A stretch of 14,995 nucleotides of DNA from Paracoccus sp. (in: a-proteobacteria) (GTDB lineage: Bacteria > Pseudomonadota > Alphaproteobacteria > Rhodobacterales > Rhodobacteraceae), in NCBI GenBank assembly GCA_018056045.1, contig JAGPGI010000021.1:1-14995 (forward strand), in the 5' to 3' direction. Shown piece by piece: positions 6,713 through 14,995 of this stretch. Positions within the stretch are counted from its first letter, which is position 1. Every line of letters begins with the position of its first letter. Below the pieces are notes generated by a model that was not told the origin of the DNA, did no database searches, and saw only the letters and a program-made list of their open reading frames with translations. Position numbers and translations under genes: made by a program.

Positions 6713-7501
6713 CTAGAGGCTTTGCCAGACGCCGGTGCGGCGGGTGAAGCGCAGATATTCGGGGGGGCGGAAGACCGGTTCGGACATGGGGGCGATGTGG
6801 CGTTCGACCAGAAGGTCATGGCCCTGAAAATCCAGCACGGCAAATTCGTTCTGAAGATCGCCCGGCCGGGCGCAAAGTGCGGTGCCGGCCTGAATCTGCA
6901 AGAGGCTGCGCCCGCTTGCGCCCTGAAAGGCGCCGATCGACCAGATATGCAGATGGCCGGTCAGAACGACGTGGATGCCGGCGCTTTCAAAGCCCGCCAA
7001 GGCCTCGGGCGCGCCTTCGGCCAGGGCCTTGTCCACCTCGGGGCGCTGTTGCAGCGGGTGGTGCAGCGCCACGATATTGATGCAAGCGGGGTCCAGCGCG
7101 CGGGTCACGCGGGCGACCTGATCGGCGCTGATCGCGCCGCGCTGCCAGGCCATCGGATCGACGCTGTTCACGCCCTGCACCCGGATATCGCCGACATGGC
7201 CGATCGGCTCCAGCGTCTGGGCAATCGCATCGTGATAGCGGCGATAGGGGCGCATGATCCGGTCGGTCAGCTTATAGAGCGGGATATCGTGATTGCCCGG
7301 CACCGCGATCAGCGGCGCCTCGATCCTGTGCAGAAAGGCCGCCGCCTGCGCGAATTGCGCCGAGCGGCCGCGATGGGTCAGATCGCCCGAGACCACCACC
7401 AGATCGGCGCGGGCGGCGTTCACCAGATCGAGCAGGGGCGCGATCAGCGCCGTGCGTTCACGGCCGAAATGCAGGTCGGAAAGATGCAGGATACGGGTCA
7501 T
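6713..7501 (-). CDS. Calcineurin-like metallophosphoesterase
   Basis: The 262-residue protein has all five metallophosphatase motifs: LHLSDLHFG (D9, H11), VVSGDLTHRG (D40), VPGNHD (N70, H71), ALHHP (H147/H148) and TGHLH (H183, H185). Together these bind a di-metal centre that hydrolyses phosphate esters. Length and motif spacing are close to the CpdA-like 3',5'-cyclic-nucleotide phosphodiesterases of COG1409, but the motifs do not fix the substrate, and a lipid or nucleotide phosphodiester is as possible. No signal peptide is seen, so it should be cytoplasmic. Its ATG overlaps the stop of the upstream lipid kinase gene as ATGA, which implies translational coupling and perhaps a shared pathway. 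Confidence 0.88.
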   Translation of the reverse strand: MTRILHLSDLHFGRERTALIAPLLDLVNAARADLVVVSGDLTHRGRSAQFAQAAAFLHRIEAPLIAVPGNHDIPLYKLTDRIMRPYRRYHDAIAQTLEPIGHVGDIRVQGVNSVDPMAWQRGAISADQVARVTRALDPACINIVALHHPLQQRPEVDKALAEGAPEALAGFESAGIHVVLTGHLHIWSIGAFQGASGRSLLQIQAGTALCARPGDLQNEFAVLDFQGHDLLVERHIAPMSEPVFRPPEYLRFTRRTGVWQSL

Positions 7502-8463
7502 GCCTTGTCCTGCCCCCCCGCCCCTCCGGGGACCAGCACCTTGAGCGCATTGCGTCGCACCCGGATATCGAAGGGTGAATCCATCCAGGTCTTTTCGCCG
7601 TCATGGGCGACATATTCATGCGGTGGATTGGCTTTGATGCGCATTTCATCGGCGCAGATCAGGTCGAAATCGGCATAGCGCGCGGTCTTGCCAAAAGCCA
7701 GCCGCAGCGCCGCGCGAATTAGCGGCCCCGGCTTTCGGGCGCGGGCGATGAGCAGCGCCAGATGGCCTTCACGGACGCGCTCGGCGCCCTCGAGGCCGAA
7801 GGTTTCGAGCTGATAGGCGCTTTTGGCCACAAAGGCGAGCGCGGTGGTGAAATGCTGCTCCTGCCCCTCGGCCTGCACGGTCAGGTGCAAGGGGTGGCGC
7901 AGGTTCCACAACGCGACCAGCGCCGACCAATAGGCCGCGATGCGCGAACGACCCCAGCGCCGATAGATGCTTTCGCGGCGCTTGAGGATTTCGGGATAAG
8001 CGCCGAAGCTGATATTGTTCAGAAATATCATGCCATTGACGTCTCCGACATGGACATGGCGCACTTGCGGCGCGTCGAAGATCTTCAGCGCCTCGTCGAC
8101 GGTCTCACCCGAACCGAGATCGCGGGCGAAATAGTTGAAGGTGCCGCCGGGGATCACCGCCATGGCGACATCGGTGCCGGCCAGCGCGCTGGCCACCGCG
8201 GCCTGCGTGCCGTCACCGCCCGCCGCCACGACAACATCAAAGCCCTCCTCGACCGCCTGACGGGCCATGTCGGTCAGGTCGGCGCCCTCTTCCACGCGGC
8301 GGATATCCACATCCGCCGCACGATCCTGCAGCACCTGTTGCAGCCGGGCAGCGATGTCGCCGCCGGCCTTGCGGCCCGAACCCATGTTCACGATCACGCA
8401 GACCCGCTTGCGGGACAGGTCGAGCAGGGCCTCGTCGGGGATTTGCGGGGGTTGGCTGAACAT
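7498..8463 (-). CDS. Diacylglycerol-kinase-family (YegS/DagK-like) lipid kinase
   Basis: From the ATG at 8463 the protein has 321 residues, normal for the family. The N-terminal DAGKc domain shows VCVIVNMGSGRKAG (21-34), the nucleotide-binding AAGGDGTQAAVASAL (80-94) with GGDGT at 82-86, and IPGGTFNYFARDLG (104-117). The remainder fits the beta-rich C-terminal domain, including FLNNISFGAYPEIL. Such enzymes phosphorylate diacylglycerol or related lipids with ATP at the inner membrane; the lipid here is unknown. The start has GAGGA three bases upstream, a rather short gap. An ATG at 8508 and a codon at 8643 extend the frame, but the added residues do not look like the family. The gene overlaps the phosphoesterase gene by four bases. 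Confidence 0.87.
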   Translation of the reverse strand: MFSQPPQIPDEALLDLSRKRVCVIVNMGSGRKAGGDIAARLQQVLQDRAADVDIRRVEEGADLTDMARQAVEEGFDVVVAAGGDGTQAAVASALAGTDVAMAVIPGGTFNYFARDLGSGETVDEALKIFDAPQVRHVHVGDVNGMIFLNNISFGAYPEILKRRESIYRRWGRSRIAAYWSALVALWNLRHPLHLTVQAEGQEQHFTTALAFVAKSAYQLETFGLEGAERVREGHLALLIARARKPGPLIRAALRLAFGKTARYADFDLICADEMRIKANPPHEYVAHDGEKTWMDSPFDIRVRRNALKVLVPGGAGGQDKA

Positions 8464-8799
8464 GCGTCCTCGGGCGGTTGGGCTAGGGCAAACATGGATG
8501 GACCGCATCCGGTTCCATGTCCCGGCAAAGCAGGATCTTATATCCGACTTTTTTACTTTACTTTCGGATTTCACTCGTCCAGATTGTGCGAGGGCAGCCA
8601 AACCGGCCGTTCGCGACCACCAGACAGCCCGGTTGCAGGCCACGCCACCCCTATAAAATCAATGACTTGATCCGCGCAGGAGCATTCCGCCCGACAGATA
8701 ACGCCGCTTTGCGGCGCGCGCGCCCGTTGCGGTGGCGCTGACGTTGTCCGGGCAGGCGACTGTCGCGATGCCGCCCCCTTCCCAGCAATGAGACAGAGC
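8464..8799. other. 336-base divergent intergenic region between the lipid kinase and siderophore operons
   Basis: I find no convincing gene here; short frames lack codon bias or homology I recognise. It is visibly richer in A/T than its flanks around 8535-8580 and 8652-8671. It must hold the promoter of the minus-strand lipid kinase operon and that of the entC operon. Visible elements are a TATAAA with an adjoining inverted repeat (entered separately) and a small perfect hairpin at 8702-8716 (six-base arms CGCCGC/GCGGCG, loop TTT) that would lie in the entC leader if transcription starts near 8665. Confidence 0.6.
8652..8671 (+). promoter_or_regulatory. Candidate entC promoter -10 with adjoining inverted repeat
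   Basis: TATAAA at 8652-8657 is a rare A/T hexamer in this GC-rich DNA and could be a -10 element. It is followed immediately by the inverted repeat ATCAA-TGAC-TTGAT (8658-8671, five-base arms), where a repressor could block initiation. No good -35 hexamer sits 16-18 bases upstream; the nearest TTG (TTGCAG, 8633-8638) leaves only 13 bases. Iron control would be expected for the operon but is not shown by this site. Confidence 0.3.
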
Positions 8800-10017
8800 A
8801 TGAATATTCGTCTTTCCGATCCTCGTGATGGCGCGGCCACTCCTACGCCTGCCCGACCGGAGGCGCAGATCGCCTTCGCCTTCAATGGTCTGGCGGGCAG
8901 CATTCAGGGGCGCGGCACGGCGCGGCCGGTTGCGCCCGGCACGGCGCGCACGCTGGCCACGCGGATCCATGACGCCTTTGACGAGGCCGGGCCGGGCCAG
9001 ATGATCGGCGGGGCGTTACCTTTTGACCGCGCGGCGCCCGATTGCCTGTGGCTGTGCGATGTTGCGCCCCCGGGTCCGATCTCTGCATCGGACACGCTGG
9101 CCCTGCGGGACTGGTCGCTGACCCCCGAACCGGCGGCGCGGGACTATGCCCGCAACGTCACGCAGGCGCTGGCGATCATGGACGGGGAGCGCGGCATGCC
9201 CGGCGCGCTGCAAAAGCTGGTCCTGGCGCGCACACTGATGCTGCGTGCCGCCGATCCGATCCCGGTCGACGCCCTGATGGCGCGGCTGGGTGCTGACCCC
9301 AGCGCCACCGCCTTTCGCGTTGAGCTGCCGCCCGCTCAGGGTCGCCAAGGCCGCCAGCTTTGCGGCGCGACGCCGGAGCTGCTGGTCGAAAAGCGCGGCG
9401 CACGGGTGCTGTCGCATCCGCTGGCCGGCTCGGCCCGGCGCCAGATCGACCCGCAACTGGACCGCGCCGCCGCAGCCGGGCTGGAGCAATCCGGCAAGGA
9501 TCACCGCGAACACGCCATGGTGGTCGAGGCGATCCTGGACACGCTGACGCCATGGTGCCGCGATCTGCGCTGCCCGGAGGGCACGCGCGTCACCTCGACC
9601 CGCAGCATGTGGCATCTGGGCACAAGGATCGAGGGGCGGCTGAAGGATGTCGAAACCCCCGCCGTGGTGCTGGCCTCGGCGCTGCATCCGACGCCGGCGG
9701 TGGGCGGCGTTCCGACCGCCCGGGCCGAGGGGCTGATCAGGACGCTTGAACCCGTGGCGCGGGATTTCTATGCCGGGGCCGTCGGCTGGTGCGATGCGCG
9801 GGGCGATGGCGCCTGGTATGTCGCCATCCGCTGCGCCGAGATCAGCGGCCGGCAGGCGCGGCTTTATGCCGGGGCGGGGATCGTCCCCGGATCAGAGCCG
9901 ATGGCCGAGGCGGCCGAGACCGGCGCCAAGTTCGGCGCGCTGCTGGCCGCGCTTGGCCTGCCCGCAGATGCCGGTCTGGCCGGCGTCCTGCGCATGGAAG
10001 AAGAAGGAGTGAACTGA
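8800..10017 (+). CDS. entC: Isochorismate synthase (EntC/DhbC-like)
   Basis: A chorismate-binding-family enzyme of about 405 residues that converts chorismate to isochorismate, the entry step to 2,3-dihydroxybenzoate. Family motifs in order are LQKLVLART with the probable catalytic-base K139, GATPELLVEK (189-198), SHPLAGSARR (205-214), SGKDHREHAMVVEAI (231-245), SMWHLGTRIEGRL (269-281), LHPTPAVGG (295-303), DFYAGAVGW and VAIRCAEI (Mg-binding acidic residue), and YAGAGIVPGSEPMAEAAETGAKF. The full set suggests an active enzyme. ATG 8800 has GAG seven bases upstream; ATG 8788 is in frame four codons earlier but lacks any ribosome-binding site. The stop TGATG overlaps the isochorismatase ATG, so this is the first gene of an entC-entB-entA operon. 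Confidence 0.92.
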   Translation: MNIRLSDPRDGAATPTPARPEAQIAFAFNGLAGSIQGRGTARPVAPGTARTLATRIHDAFDEAGPGQMIGGALPFDRAAPDCLWLCDVAPPGPISASDTLALRDWSLTPEPAARDYARNVTQALAIMDGERGMPGALQKLVLARTLMLRAADPIPVDALMARLGADPSATAFRVELPPAQGRQGRQLCGATPELLVEKRGARVLSHPLAGSARRQIDPQLDRAAAAGLEQSGKDHREHAMVVEAILDTLTPWCRDLRCPEGTRVTSTRSMWHLGTRIEGRLKDVETPAVVLASALHPTPAVGGVPTARAEGLIRTLEPVARDFYAGAVGWCDARGDGAWYVAIRCAEISGRQARLYAGAGIVPGSEPMAEAAETGAKFGALLAALGLPADAGLAGVLRMEEEGVN

Positions 10018-10676
10018 TGGCCCTGCCCGGCATCGCCCCCTATGACCTGCCCCGCGAAAGCGACCTGCCAAAGGCGCGCGGGCCGTGGCAGCCCCGGGGC
10101 GACCGGCTGGCGCTGCTGGTCCATGACATGCAGCTCTATTTCTGCCGCCCCTATCCTGAGGGCGCACCGCTGACCCCGGCCATCGCCAATATCGCGCGCC
10201 TGATCGCGGGGGCGCGCAGGGCGGGCGTGCCGGTCCTTTACACCGCGCAAAAGGGCAATCAGTTCCGCCCCGATCGCGGTCTTCAGGCCGATCTGTGGGG
10301 TCCGGGCATGAGCGCCACCCCCGAGCATGAGGAGATCCTGCCCGATCTGGCCCCAGCGAATGGCGATATCGTGCTGGTCAAGCACCGCTACAGCGCCTTT
10401 CAGCGCTCGAATCTGGAAACGCTGATGCGCGCGCGGGGGCGCGACCAGTTGATGATTTGCGGGATTTACGCCCATATCGGCTGCCTTGCCACCGCGATCG
10501 AGGCTTTCCAGCGCGATATCGAGACCTTTGCCGTCGCCGATGCGCAGGCCGATTTCTCGCGCGAGAAACACGACATGGCGATGGGCTGGATCGCGGCGAC
10601 CTGCGGCGTGGTGCTGTCCACAGATCAGGCGGTCGCAGCGATGGACGCCGTTGAAAAGGTCAGATCATGCGCCTGA
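10017..10676 (+). CDS. entB: Isochorismatase lacking the aryl carrier domain (EntB N-terminal domain only)
   Basis: The enzyme hydrolyses the enolpyruvyl ether of isochorismate to 2,3-dihydro-2,3-dihydroxybenzoate and pyruvate. The 219 residues follow the EntB isochorismatase domain closely: LLVHDMQLYF with D37, YTAQKGNQ, DLWGPGM, LVKHRYSAF with K122, and GIYAHIGCLATA, where G155 takes the place of the nucleophilic cysteine of other cysteine-hydrolase-fold enzymes, as in EntB and PhzD. DAQADFSREKH follows. EntB is usually about 285 residues because an aryl carrier protein is fused at its C-terminus; here the protein ends soon after the hydrolase domain, and a separate carrier gene is at 11483-11725. 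AAGGAG at 10004-10009 precedes the ATG by seven bases. It overlaps entC by one base and entA by ten. Confidence 0.92.
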   Translation: MALPGIAPYDLPRESDLPKARGPWQPRGDRLALLVHDMQLYFCRPYPEGAPLTPAIANIARLIAGARRAGVPVLYTAQKGNQFRPDRGLQADLWGPGMSATPEHEEILPDLAPANGDIVLVKHRYSAFQRSNLETLMRARGRDQLMICGIYAHIGCLATAIEAFQRDIETFAVADAQADFSREKHDMAMGWIAATCGVVLSTDQAVAAMDAVEKVRSCA

Positions 10677-11440
10677 GCGGATTTGCCGGGCAAACCGCCA
10701 TCGTCACCGGCGCGGCGGGCGGCATCGGGCAGGCCGTGACCCGCGCCCTGCTTGAGGCCGGCGCCCGTGTCACCGCCGCCGATACCGAGGCCGCGCTCGC
10801 CGCGAACCCGCCCCCGCCCGGTGCCACAGCCGCCGCGCTGGATGTCCGCGACGGCGCGGCGCTTGAGGCGCTGGTATCTCAGACCGAGGCCCGGCTGGGC
10901 CCGCTGGCGCTTGGCGTCCATGCCGCCGGAATCCTGTCGATCGGGCCGCTGCTGGACCTTCAGCCCGAGGAATGGGAGCGGGTGATCGGCGTCAACACCA
11001 CCGGCAGCTTCAACACCCTGCGGGCCTTTGGTCGGGCGATGGTGCGCCATGGCCGCGGCAGCATTGTCACCATCAGTTCGAACGCGGCGGCGCTGCCGCG
11101 CATGAACATGGGCGCCTATGCGGCCTCAAAGGCCGCCGTCACGATGCTGGTGCGCTGTCTGGGGCTGGAACTGGCCGGACAGGGCGTGCGCTGCAATATC
11201 GTCGCGCCCGGCTCGACCCTGACGCCGATGCAGACCGGTATGTGGGCCGACCAGGCCGCCAATGGCGAGCGTGCGGTGATCGAGGGCAGTCTGGAAAGCT
11301 ATCGCACCGGCATCCCGCTGAAAAAGCTGGCGACGCCCGAGGATGTCTCGGATGCGGTGATGTTTCTGCTGTCGGATCAGGCCGGCCACATCACCATGGC
11401 CGATATCTTTGTCGATGGCGGCGCGACCCTGCGCGCCTGA
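10667..11440 (+). CDS. entA: 2,3-dihydro-2,3-dihydroxybenzoate dehydrogenase (EntA/DhbA-like SDR)
   Basis: This short-chain dehydrogenase/reductase of 257 residues oxidises 2,3-dihydro-2,3-dihydroxybenzoate with NAD+ to 2,3-dihydroxybenzoate. It has the nucleotide-binding TGAAGGIG (14-21), the VHAAG variant of NAAG (84-88), N110, the catalytic S138 in ISSNAA, and Y151/K155 in GAYAASK. Downstream segments LELAGQGVRCNIVAPGST, GIPLKKLATPEDV and HITMADIFVDGG closely follow E. coli EntA, which with the gene neighbourhood separates it from other SDRs. Its ATG lies inside the end of entB, indicating tight coupling, and it is the last gene of the plus-strand DHB operon. The operon converges on the aryl carrier protein gene 42 bases away. 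Confidence 0.92.
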   Translation: MRLSGFAGQTAIVTGAAGGIGQAVTRALLEAGARVTAADTEAALAANPPPPGATAAALDVRDGAALEALVSQTEARLGPLALGVHAAGILSIGPLLDLQPEEWERVIGVNTTGSFNTLRAFGRAMVRHGRGSIVTISSNAAALPRMNMGAYAASKAAVTMLVRCLGLELAGQGVRCNIVAPGSTLTPMQTGMWADQAANGERAVIEGSLESYRTGIPLKKLATPEDVSDAVMFLLSDQAGHITMADIFVDGGATLRA

Positions 11441-11455
11441 CGGCGGATATGCGGG

Positions 11456-11472
11456 GCCGGCGCACCGGCGCC
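11456..11472. terminator. GC-rich hairpin between convergent entA and carrier-protein genes
   Basis: In the 42-base convergent gap, GCCGG-CGCA-CCGGC (11456-11469) or the alternative GGCGC-ACCG-GCGCC (11459-11472) can form a stem. There is no U-tract on either side. A role as a bidirectional end of transcription is suggested by position only. Confidence 0.3.
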
Positions 11473-11482
11473 CGCCCATCGC

Positions 11483-11725
11483 TCAGGCCCGCGCGGCGAT
11501 CAGCGCCCACCAGTCGTTCAGCGTCGGCTGACGCGCCAGTTCCTCGAAGCTGGCCTTGATGCCCATCTGATTCAATTCGGACGAGAAGGTCATCACGGCG
11601 ATGGAATCGAGGCCGTAAAGCACCAGATTCTCGGCCGGGTCGATCTCGCCATCATCCTCGATCATCTTCTGGACCCGGGCCAGCAGCCAGTCGGGGCTGA
11701 GGCGGGTTTTCTCGGCGGTTTCCAT
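11483..11725 (-). CDS. Stand-alone aryl carrier protein (ArCP)
   Basis: An 80-residue acyl/peptidyl-carrier fold protein with the phosphopantetheine attachment motif YGLDSIAVM; the serine is S41 counted from the ATG at 11725. The arm carries DHB as a thioester after loading by the EntE-like ligase. The sequence resembles the C-terminal carrier domain of EntB/VibB, here encoded as a separate protein. The ATG at 11725 is chosen because AAAGGG (11737-11732) lies six bases upstream of it; an ATG at 11731 would have no spacing from the same site. It begins 12 bases after the entE stop on the same strand, so ligase and carrier are co-expressed. The phosphopantetheinyl transferase it needs is not in this window. 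Confidence 0.88.
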   Translation of the reverse strand: METAEKTRLSPDWLLARVQKMIEDDGEIDPAENLVLYGLDSIAVMTFSSELNQMGIKASFEELARQPTLNDWWALIAARA

Positions 11726-11737
11726 GGTCATCCCTTT

Positions 11738-13357
11738 CTAAGCGGCGATTGTGGTCAGACTGTCGCGCAGGCTGCGCTTGTCGATCTTGCCCACCGCCGT
11801 CAGCGGCAATGCGGGCAGAAAGCGGAAACGGTCGGGCAGCTTGTATTCGGCCACGCCCAGATCCAGCAGGTGGCGGCGCAGCGCGGGCGGCGAAAGCTTT
11901 TCGGCCCCCTCGCGCAGCACGAGGAAGGCGCAGCTTTTCTCGCCCAGATGCGCATCGGGCGTGGCGACCAGCCCAGCATGGGTGATGTCGGGATGGCGCA
12001 GCAGCAGGTTCTCGATCTCCTCGGCGGCGATCTTTTCGCCACCCCGGTTGATCTGGTCCTTGATGCGGCCGACGACGCGCAGATAGCCGCCCTGCCGCAC
12101 CACCATGTCGCCGGAATGGTAAAATCCATCCGCATCAAAGGCCTGCGCGTTATGATCAGGGCTGCGGTAATAGCCCCGGAACGTATAGGGGCCGCGTGTC
12201 GCCAGTGCGCCGGGAATGCCGTCGGGGACGGGGCGGCCGTCCTGATCCAGCACCCGGATTTCGTCATCGGGGCTGATCGGGCGGCCTTGGGTGGTAAAAA
12301 TGGTCTCGGCGCTGTCCTCAAGCCGGGTATAGTTCACCAGCCCCTCGGCCATGCCAAAGACCTGCTGCAGGCGGCAGCCCAGCAGTTCGGGGACGCTGCG
12401 CGCGGTCGTTTCGGCAAAGCTGGCGCCGCCGACCAGCATCTGGTTCAGCGTCGCCAGTTGGGCGCGGCGGGCGGGGTCCTCCTCAACCGCGCGCAGCCAC
12501 AGGGCGACGGCGGGCGGGACCAGCGACGCCATGGTCACACCTTCGCGCGAGATCAGGTCGAAACAGGTCTGCGGCTCGGGGCTGGGCGCCATGATGACGG
12601 TGCCCCCGGCATGGAACACACCCAGCGCCCCGGGCGAGCTGAGCGTGAAGTTATGCCCCGCCGGCAGCGCGCACAGAAACCGCGTCTGCGCGGTCACGCC
12701 GCAGATCTCGGCGCTGGCACGGACCGAGTAATCGTAATCGTTATGGGTGCGCGGGATCAGCTTGGGCGTGCCGGTGCTGCCGCCCGAAAGCTGGAAGAAG
12801 GCGACCTGATCGGCAGGGGTCGGGCCGGCGCCCTCGGGCAGATCTGCGCCCGGCTCAAGCCAATGGCTCAGGCTGCGTTCGGGTGCCGCTTCACCCAGAA
12901 ATAGCAGGGTCTCAGCACCAGCGGCGCGCAATTCATCGGCGAAGGCGTCATCCCGGAACAACTCATGCCCGCGCGCGGCGATGACAAGGCGCGGCGCGAT
13001 CTGGGCGGCATAGGCGGCCAGCTCCAGCCGGCGATGGCTGTATAGCGCATTCACCGGCACCACGCCGATGCGCAACAGCGCAAAGAACACGATGTAGAAC
13101 TCGGCCACATTCGGCAGTTGCACCAGCGCCGTGTCGCCATGCCCCAGCCCCGCCCGCGCCAGCCGCGCCGCCAGATTGCGCGACAGCCGGTCCAGATCGG
13201 CATAGCTCAGCCGGCGGTCGCCGCAGACCAGCGCCCCGGCCGCCGGGCGCGCGGCAAGCTGGGCATCAAGGATGCCGGTCAGAGGCTGGTCGATCCAATA
13301 GCCGGCACGACGATAGCGCGCCGCCAGATCCTGAGGCCAGGGGCTGAATTCGATCAT
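11738..13357 (-). CDS. entE: 2,3-dihydroxybenzoate-AMP ligase (EntE/DhbE/VibE-like)
   Basis: From ATG 13357 the enzyme has 539 residues. It activates 2,3-dihydroxybenzoate with ATP and loads it on the aryl carrier protein. ANL-superfamily motifs are LSGGSTGTPK (190-199), FGMAEGLVNYTR (334-345), the SGD of HSGDM (415-417), GRIKDQINRGGEKI (430-443) and the catalytic lysine K524 in AVGKIDK. The aryl pocket segment is GHNFTLSSPG: N236 and S241 agree with DHB ligases, while F237 replaces the usual tyrosine. The start matches the N-terminus of E. coli EntE (MIEFSPWPQDLAARY against a similar WP-containing opening) and has AAGGG seven bases upstream; codon 13378 lacks this support. The carrier protein gene follows directly, and the VibH-like gene is divergent. 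Confidence 0.94.
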   Translation of the reverse strand: MIEFSPWPQDLAARYRRAGYWIDQPLTGILDAQLAARPAAGALVCGDRRLSYADLDRLSRNLAARLARAGLGHGDTALVQLPNVAEFYIVFFALLRIGVVPVNALYSHRRLELAAYAAQIAPRLVIAARGHELFRDDAFADELRAAGAETLLFLGEAAPERSLSHWLEPGADLPEGAGPTPADQVAFFQLSGGSTGTPKLIPRTHNDYDYSVRASAEICGVTAQTRFLCALPAGHNFTLSSPGALGVFHAGGTVIMAPSPEPQTCFDLISREGVTMASLVPPAVALWLRAVEEDPARRAQLATLNQMLVGGASFAETTARSVPELLGCRLQQVFGMAEGLVNYTRLEDSAETIFTTQGRPISPDDEIRVLDQDGRPVPDGIPGALATRGPYTFRGYYRSPDHNAQAFDADGFYHSGDMVVRQGGYLRVVGRIKDQINRGGEKIAAEEIENLLLRHPDITHAGLVATPDAHLGEKSCAFLVLREGAEKLSPPALRRHLLDLGVAEYKLPDRFRFLPALPLTAVGKIDKRSLRDSLTTIAA

Positions 13358-13396
13358 GGAAATACCCTTGTTCAACACGATATCCCGCCCGTCATC

Positions 13397-13444
13397 TTGA
13401 CCCGGCAGGATAGTCGAGTATTTTTATCTGAAATGTCACATCAA
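13397..13444. promoter_or_regulatory. Divergent entE/vibH promoters with a TGA-N9-TCA (IRO-box-like) operator
   Basis: The 150-base gap contains two overlapping sigma70-like promoters. For the plus-strand vibH-like gene, TTGACC (13397-13402) and TATTTT (13419-13424) are 16 bases apart. For entE on the minus strand, TTGATG (13444-13439) and AATACT (13422-13417) are also 16 bases apart. TGA-N9-TCA, the core of the RirA iron-responsive operator known in rhizobia, occupies 13429-13443. It covers the entE -35 and sits just past the vibH -10, where one repressor could silence both directions. Each element is a weak match alone; their arrangement is the argument. Confidence 0.4.
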
Positions 13445-13507
13445 GGCAAGCCGGATACAACCCACAGGATGTTCGGCCCGCCCTTCTCAGATATCCGGAC
13501 CCAAGAC

Positions 13508-14854
13508 ATGACCCAGTATCAACCCGACGCCGACTGGATGCCGCTGACGCTGGCCCAGCTGGACTTCTGGGAGGAGTTCTGCCTGCATCCCGACACCGCC
13601 GTCTCGACCGTGGCGCATGTGATCGAGCTGCGCGGCGTCACCCATCCCGGCGCGCTGCGCCGCGCCATCGAGACCACCGCCGCCGAGACCGACATCACCG
13701 CGCTGCGCTTTTCGCTGGGCGCCGATGGCCAGCCCCGGCAGCGGGTCGACCGGCACCATCGCCCGCCGCTGCGGCGCATCGTCCTTGACCGGCAAGAGGA
13801 CGGACGGGCGCGGGCCTTTGCCATGATGCAGGCCGATGTGGACGCGCCCCTGGACCTGCTGACCCGTCCCATCGCCGCACAATGGCTGATCCGGCTGGGC
13901 GAGGGGCATTACCTGTGGTTCAATCGCGGCCATCACATCGCGCTGGACGGCTATGGCATGGCGCTGGTCGAGCGGCGCTGCGCGGCGCTATATGGCGCGC
14001 TGACCCAGGGCACCGATCCGGGGCCGCCGCTGCGCCCGCTGGCCGACTACCTGAACGAGGAAACCGATTACCGCGCCAGCCCCCGCCATGCCGCCGATGG
14101 CCGGCACTGGGCCGGGGTGCTGGCCGAGGCGCCCGCGCCGCAGGTTCTGCAGAAAGGCTCCGAGAACTATCCGACCACCGCGCTCGAGGCCGGCCATGAC
14201 CTGTCGGCGCTGCGCGGGCCGCTGCTTGAGCGGGCGAGCGCGCTTGGCATCGGCTGGCCGGATCTGTTGACGGCGCTTTGCGCGGTCTGGGCGGCGCTGC
14301 GGATCAGGGACGGCTCGGCCCGCTGCGAACAGGACGGCGACGGCCGGATCCGGATGCCGGTCTGGCTGCCCTATATGAGCCGCATGGGCAGCGTCAGCGT
14401 CTCGGTCCCGGCGCTGGTGGTCAATATCCTGCCTCTGCTGGTCGATCTGCACCCCGACGAACCGCTGGAGACGGTGCTGACCCGGCTGGGCTCCAGCCTG
14501 CGCATGCTGCGCCGCCATGGCCGCTACAGGATCGAGCAGATCGCGCAAGATCACGGCCTTGGCGCGCAAAGCCGGTTCTTCTTTTCGCCGCTGATCAACG
14601 TCCTGCCCTTTGACGAGGCGCATTTCCCCGGCTGCGAGGCCACACGCGAGGTGCTGTCGAACGGGCCGGGCGACGGCTTCAACATCACCATCCGCAGCGA
14701 CGGGCAGGCCGAGGGGCTGGAGCTGCTGATCGAGGCCGATCCGGCGCTGACCCCCGCCGGGGCCTTCGAGGGGCTGGCCGCCGGCCTGCCACGCTTTCTG
14801 GCGCAGGCGCTGCTGGGGGACATGTCCCGGCCGCTGCGCGAACTGCCGGGCTGA
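13508..14854 (+). CDS. VibH-like stand-alone NRPS condensation domain (DHB-polyamine amide synthase)
   Basis: The 448 residues form one complete condensation domain with no adenylation or carrier domain, close in length to VibH (about 440). The active-site motif HHxxxDG is intact (H142-H143, D147-G148, in RGHHIALDGYGM). GIGWPD holds W250, WLPYMSRMGSV and VNILPLL follow, then HGRYRIEQIAQDHGL (337-351), SPLINVLPF with N364, and NGPGDGFNITIR. These segments resemble VibH as I recall it, including its tryptophan and asparagine near the acceptor site. VibH couples carrier-bound DHB to a free polyamine; spermidine is the likely acceptor in Paracoccus-type parabactin, but this is inferred. ATG 13508 has GGA eight bases upstream; ATG 13469 has AGG with no spacing. 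The gene is divergent from entE. Confidence 0.88.
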   Translation: MTQYQPDADWMPLTLAQLDFWEEFCLHPDTAVSTVAHVIELRGVTHPGALRRAIETTAAETDITALRFSLGADGQPRQRVDRHHRPPLRRIVLDRQEDGRARAFAMMQADVDAPLDLLTRPIAAQWLIRLGEGHYLWFNRGHHIALDGYGMALVERRCAALYGALTQGTDPGPPLRPLADYLNEETDYRASPRHAADGRHWAGVLAEAPAPQVLQKGSENYPTTALEAGHDLSALRGPLLERASALGIGWPDLLTALCAVWAALRIRDGSARCEQDGDGRIRMPVWLPYMSRMGSVSVSVPALVVNILPLLVDLHPDEPLETVLTRLGSSLRMLRRHGRYRIEQIAQDHGLGAQSRFFFSPLINVLPFDEAHFPGCEATREVLSNGPGDGFNITIRSDGQAEGLELLIEADPALTPAGAFEGLAAGLPRFLAQALLGDMSRPLRELPG

Positions 14855-14890
14855 GGCGCTATTTCTGTTAGGGGATCGTCACCGCCGCCC

Positions 14891-14986
14891 CCGATTTCGG
14901 CGACGGGGCATATTGCCGGCCAATGCAGCCATTGGCATCGCGGCCCCATGGGCGGCGCGTCCCCGGGGGCGGGGTTTCGAAATCGG
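14891..14986. repeat. Nested inverted repeats downstream of the vibH-like gene
   Basis: In the 141 bases after the vibH-like stop, CCGATTTCG (14891-14899) is mirrored exactly by CGAAATCGG (14978-14986). Inside them GCCAAT-GCAGCC-ATTGGC (14919-14936) forms a further six-base stem. I see no gene in this stretch. The structure could be a 3'-end element or part of the control region of the next gene beyond the edge; the evidence is the base pairing alone. Confidence 0.35.
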
Positions 14987-14995
14987 CACACAGCC

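Follow-up and report, generated by a model that had tools for sequence, protein, structure and literature searches.

A six-gene locus for a predicted catecholate siderophore

Which siderophore does a Paracoccus locus make when it pairs the genes for 2,3-dihydroxybenzoate (DHB) with a VibH-type condensation enzyme and holds no EntF? We addressed this question for a window of 14,995 bases, which is one whole contig (C301) of a MAG of 3.04 Mb (491 contigs, 71.8% complete). The locus spans positions 8788-14854, and all six genes were present and open by profile and frame checks. A first-pass annotation had placed entC, entB and entA on the plus strand, ArCP and entE on the minus strand and a VibH-like gene divergent from entE, and had seen no EntF; all six genes were found on the strands claimed, and a profile search of the window returned a single Condensation match and no EntF. 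The features are as follows.

8788..10017, plus strand: entC, isochorismate synthase (Chorismate_bind, E 6e-66; TIGR00543, 242.4 bits against a cut-off of 224.75)
10017..10676, plus strand: entB, isochorismatase domain only, 219 aa, without a fused ArCP (Isochorismatase, E 1e-40; frame checked)
10667..11440, plus strand: entA, 2,3-dihydro-2,3-DHB dehydrogenase (TIGR04316, dhbA_paeA, 305.1 bits against a cut-off of 300)
11483..11731, minus strand: ArCP, free-standing aryl carrier protein with a GLDSI phosphopantetheine site (PP-binding, E 3e-11)
11738..13378, minus strand: entE, DHB-AMP ligase (NF008192, 862 bits, cut-off 783; TIGR02275, 791.5 bits, cut-off 723.55)
13397..13428, plus strand: vibH promoter by motif scans, with TTGACC, 16 bases and TATTTT; GAGTATTTTTATC lies at 13416-13428, over the -10
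13508..14854, plus strand: VibH-type free-standing condensation enzyme, a predicted amide synthase of 448 aa with the motif HHIALDG (Condensation domain; best PDB match 1l5a)

Genes for both the synthesis and the activation of DHB are therefore present by profile search, with ArCP and entE converging on entA. The window showed neither a TonB receptor nor an exporter.

Among solved structures, the VibH-type protein matched VibH best (PDB 1l5a; residues 14-435 of 448, E 7e-69), followed by ObiF1 (5e-42) and EntF (5ja1, 8e-36). The VibH-type proteins split from EntF C domains in a tree with support of 100/100, and the active-site motif fits HHIxxDG, which amide synthases are described as carrying in passages of PMC7962358; the same passages hold that the polyamine substrate is unreadable from a VibH sequence. 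From its sequence, the enzyme is predicted to acylate a free polyamine from aryl-ArCP. The earlier proposal of a polyamine catecholate is supported by this match, by the DHB genes, by the locus having its own ArCP and, from another part of the MAG, by a gene that resembles carboxyspermidine decarboxylase (E 1e-120; 399 bits, slightly below the 409-bit cut-off).

The layout is conserved among relatives

A scan of genome contigs returned nine related loci. The three-transcript layout had been called unusual, yet gene order and strands were identical in all eight named Paracoccus species (L009-L016; VibH identity 69-86%) and were found again in P. seriniphilus. Rhodovulum MB263 and a locus from a 47% MAG (L017) have an NRPS inserted between entE and vibH. 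Among 29 loci drawn from a search of the genus (L065-L093, some species repeated), 27 have entE and vibH in divergent orientation, and the other two showed no entE within the short stretch covered. Left of the locus in the window lie a lipid/DAG-kinase-like gene (7498-8643, minus strand) and a phosphoesterase-like gene (6713-7501, minus strand), which flank the locus in most relatives too and thus indicate a fixed chromosomal site.

The first-pass annotation had also expected a VibF-like NRPS beyond the right edge, and this expectation is contradicted by the comparison. The same two small genes lie right of vibH in L009-L016 (8/8), where no NRPS or VibF adjoins vibH on that side. The last 132 bases of the window (14862-14993, minus strand) already hold the final part of the first of these genes, the small non-NRPS gene next to vibH in all eight relatives, at 73% identity to its P. 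lutimaris counterpart.

VibH, VibF and EntF across Paracoccus genomes

A VibH-type match (E below 1e-100) was present in 39 of 125 Paracoccus genomes, a match to the first VibF cyclization domain in 11 and an EntF relative in 35, counting the frame-shifted G130. The 481-aa EntF-like frame of G130 was considered as a third lone C domain and rejected, as EntF continues there in another frame. The 39 VibH-bearing genomes comprise nine with VibF (four of them with EntF), 13 with EntF and no VibF, two with a lone C domain (the MAG and P. lutimaris), 12 with VibH alone and three others; VibF lies on another contig than VibH in five of the nine and beside it in four, and 30 of the 39 show no VibF. 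No match to the VibF cyclization domain was found in the MAG, at 71.8% completeness, nor in P. lutimaris, the closest isolate (99% complete).

In the 12 genomes with VibH alone, all at least 99% complete, VibH is the sole PF00668 match in the genome (E 1e-6). Seven of the eight that we inspected hold the full six-gene unit; the eighth (G044; L102 = G044:C10:395000-414000) has a VibH-type gene at 8972-10294 and no DHB genes within 19 kb. The VibH-only pathway is thus common, and since these genomes hold no other condensation domain, neither parabactin nor vibriobactin nor enterobactin would be expected from them.

P. denitrificans offers the most instructive comparison. Its parabactin/brucebactin pathway shares the six-gene layout (identity 68% for entC, 82% for entE and 71% for VibH) and the vibH promoter element, but adds an intact EntF and a separate VibF locus. 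In strain DSM 413, VibH and EntF are accompanied by a 1917-aa protein (VibF) with Pfam matches to Condensation in three stretches, the last at 1473-1894, and to AMP-binding and PP-binding. We infer from the sequence that the first two Condensation stretches are cyclization domains; DxxxxD occurs in the protein (DMIAADPSC, DALPLDGAG), and the exact pattern DxxxxDxxS was not found in it. Around VibF lie a second DHB-AMP-ligase-like enzyme (645 bits, below the DHB cut-off of 723.55), a second carrier protein (ArCP), ABC transporter genes, a binding-protein-like gene recognised by eye and the end of a frame that resembles a TonB receptor and shares 51% identity with the receptor of the Rhodovulum locus. 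A search of P. denitrificans for salicylate synthase gave three matches, none above the cut-off. The VibF locus is likely the parabactin-specific one of the species. Brucebactin, parabactin and enterobactin are all reported as detected in PD1222 in the portions consulted of PMC13251462, and VibH, VibF and EntF match these three products, one per assembly enzyme; the main text of that paper does not contain the terms VibH or amide synthase.

A promoter element is shared by vibH and vibF

The sequence AGTATTT[TC]T[AG]T occurs in 28 of 28 entE-vibH intergenic regions, mostly downstream of a TTGAC box, a count that is descriptive only because the motif was read off those same sequences. P. denitrificans and G068 each carry two copies of the pattern TNRAGTATTTTTATC, one in front of vibH and the other in front of vibF; the MAG has one copy, before vibH, and P. 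lutimaris none, its site differing by one base. The reversed pattern gave zero matches in these four genomes. Across the 125 genomes, the wider pattern GAGTATTTYTRTC was matched 38 times, in 30 genomes, and its reversed control 11 times, and the exact 13-base GAGTATTTTTATC occurs in 24 copies, 14 before VibH and 9 before VibF, these 23 lying 2-148 bases upstream on the correct strand. Two more GAGTATTTYTRTC sites fall at vibH by their coordinates (G038 and G122), which leaves 12 unassigned, about the control number. The exact GAGTATTTTTATC is present at VibH in 14 of the 39 VibH-bearing genomes and absent from 25, with variants in the rest of those examined. Neither the EntF loci nor the lone C loci that were scanned carry a good match to the element. 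The shared promoter element thus ties the VibH and VibF loci together.

The 24th copy, in G062, adjoins entE at the place expected for vibH, where vibH is gone, and the VibF match of the same genome extends only to residue 1485 (of 1917), shortly after the last C domain begins: a case of joint decay. These features of G062 lie in L125 (G062:C1:1864000-1882000) near 10309 and in L126 near 7104, and its VibF is nearly identical to the P. denitrificans protein.

A candidate iron box before vibH, the RirA-type motif TGA-N9-TCA, has one copy in the window, but was rejected with 2 occurrences in the 28 intergenic regions against 0.63 expected. A search of the open-licence PMC literature gave no paper linking the 'Iron-Rhodo-box' with Paracoccus, and any control of the locus by iron is presumed.

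A bis-catechol polyamide is the likely product

We give a probability of about 0.66 to the reading that the product of the locus is a bis-(2,3-dihydroxybenzoyl) polyamide, with N1,N8-bis-DHB-spermidine as the likeliest compound, the one to which the name brucebactin presumably refers in P. denitrificans. EntC, EntB and EntA would convert chorismate to DHB, EntE would adenylate it and load the free ArCP, and VibH would then act twice, each time moving DHB from ArCP onto a primary amine of a free polyamine; with VibF missing, no oxazoline arm would be added. A mono-DHB product may be an alternative; VibH of V. cholerae makes a mono-amide. Parabactin in P. denitrificans would come from the same six genes together with VibF from its distant locus, under the same promoter element. 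Of the products named in the first-pass annotation, bis-DHB-spermidine holds as the best reading. Its parabactin/agrobactin alternative lacks support for this genome, because VibF was not found in the incomplete MAG or in P. lutimaris; 30 of the 39 VibH-bearing genomes show none, and a bis-catechol polyamide of the brucebactin type is likely rather than parabactin.

A lone condensation domain at the EntF site

Besides VibH, the only C-domain place in the MAG is a lone C domain gene on a separate contig (G000:C214:478-1770), and no EntF with the C-A-PCP-TE architecture was found there. The gene sits at the chromosomal site of EntF in both the MAG and P. lutimaris, where it is also kept, and is 60-66% identical to the C domain of Paracoccus EntF, from which it differs in having lost A-PCP-TE and in the changes HHxxxDG to HHxxxDC and Asn to Lys. 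A tblastn search with EntF found nothing beyond the C domain on C214 or in L048. EntF relatives are common in the genus and the EntF C domain persists here, but in both genomes the EntF site has lost the adenylation, carrier and thioesterase domains together with the esterase and uptake genes, and the rest of the MAG was searched for C domains; enterobactin or another DHB-peptide is a very improbable product.

The lone C domains form one clade (support 100/100) and are under purifying selection (dN/dS 0.28, from a set that left out the window-P. lutimaris 'vibH' row and the 'entB' row, whose frames run into non-coding or overlapping sequence, and in which some other VibH rows run slightly upstream of the start, so that their values may be raised). 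The predicted fold is that of a whole C domain. Of 65 columns common to EntF-C and VibH, all 10 lone C rows keep 45, both His included, and 15 are partly kept; the other five are replaced, two of them at positions named as acceptor determinants in the sections consulted of PMC6996325. Fixed changes in the family fall at VibH G131 (Gly to Cys or Ser) and N335 (Asn to Lys or Arg). Free-standing C domains of the OaaC type, which make fatty acid amides and are likened here by description, have a free amine acceptor and, like the lone C family, often carry a residue other than Gly behind the catalytic Asp (Ser 42%, Ala 36%, Gly 17% in the part consulted of PMC13142362), but use another acyl donor.

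On the boldest reading, the lone C domain is a second amide synthase. A deletion in this lineage might have trimmed one EntF to its C domain, which went on as a free-standing aryl-amide synthase that uses a different free amine as acceptor. A VibH-like enzyme would then have arisen a second time, independently, and the G131 and N335 changes would mark the acceptor switch; we hold this to be a tentative possibility, with the odds against it. That both enzymes take part in making the product of the locus, VibH acylating one amine and the EntF-derived C domain either the next one or a different free amine, for instance that of an amino acid, is unlikely: the selection, single clade, whole fold, kept columns and replaced acceptor positions speak for it, but 12 other genomes have VibH alone, the lone C gene lacks the VibH/VibF promoter element, and its changes might equally have killed catalysis.

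Parabactin or agrobactin would result if a VibF locus in the missing quarter of the MAG added an oxazoline arm, which we consider improbable. VibF could be unassembled, the MAG being only 71.8% complete, and it could be missed where, as in five of the nine VibF-bearing genomes (P. denitrificans is among the nine), it lies on another contig. Against this stand the near-complete P. lutimaris without a VibF match, the two C-domain places of the MAG, the 30 genomes that show no VibF and the single copy of TNRAGTATTTTTATC in the MAG, at vibH. A bis-DHB polyamide thus remains our preferred product.

Comparison with known systems

The free-standing VibH-type amide synthase is shared with the vibriobactin system of V. 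cholerae (VibABCDEFH) and stands here with DHB genes and an ArCP. In V. cholerae the EntB-type isochorismatase is fused to ArCP, whereas EntB is unfused here and no VibF lies in or beside the locus. The locus on P. seriniphilus plasmid p449297 has the same six genes in three transcripts but is plasmid-borne, with a phosphopantetheinyl transferase and a TonB receptor as its neighbours; the receptor is divided by an IS110-family transposase gene (L005, 6668-10299).

Other replicons carry related genes. An E. coli plasmid (NZ_AP022088.1; L006, 16001-31189) pairs a VibH-type gene with a large VibF-like NRPS and also encodes FepB, permeases, a TonB receptor and a protein of about 920 aa with a C domain. 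The annotation of the 33 kb examined lists no DHB genes, so host DHB might be used; NZ_CP146684.1 came up as a further hit. Where VibF adjoins VibH, the locus also encodes an additional protein of 700-920 aa with a C domain (L004, 20403-22505; L017, 14631-16988; L006, 27270-30029). On pDG3-1f of Agrobacterium salinitolerans (L008, 16001-17140), a VibH-type gene (43%) follows large NRPS-like frames and DHB genes and is a candidate for the agrobactin amide synthase, an enzyme called unidentified in the portions consulted of PMC7962358.

Implications

The paper of Wang et al. 2014 (PNAS) is reportedly cited by others for parabactin NRPS genes, so the assignment of a parabactin locus may partly be in print. 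Parabactin is cited from papers of 1975-1979, with its gene cluster 'yet to be identified' in 2021 (passages of PMC7962358), and its pathway was counted among those 'not well characterized' in 2025 (passages of PMC12005286). The shared promoter element, the co-occurrence of VibH and VibF and the single instance of joint decay suggest that the pathway is divided between two loci far apart in the genome, an arrangement that gene-cluster finders may overlook.

If the lone C domain is a second amide synthase, two kinds of DHB amide would be made from one DHB supply. The EntF-derived free C domain itself illustrates a natural path by which a modular enzyme can give rise to a stand-alone one. The VibH-only genomes, for their part, suggest that six proteins may suffice for a polyamine-catechol pathway.
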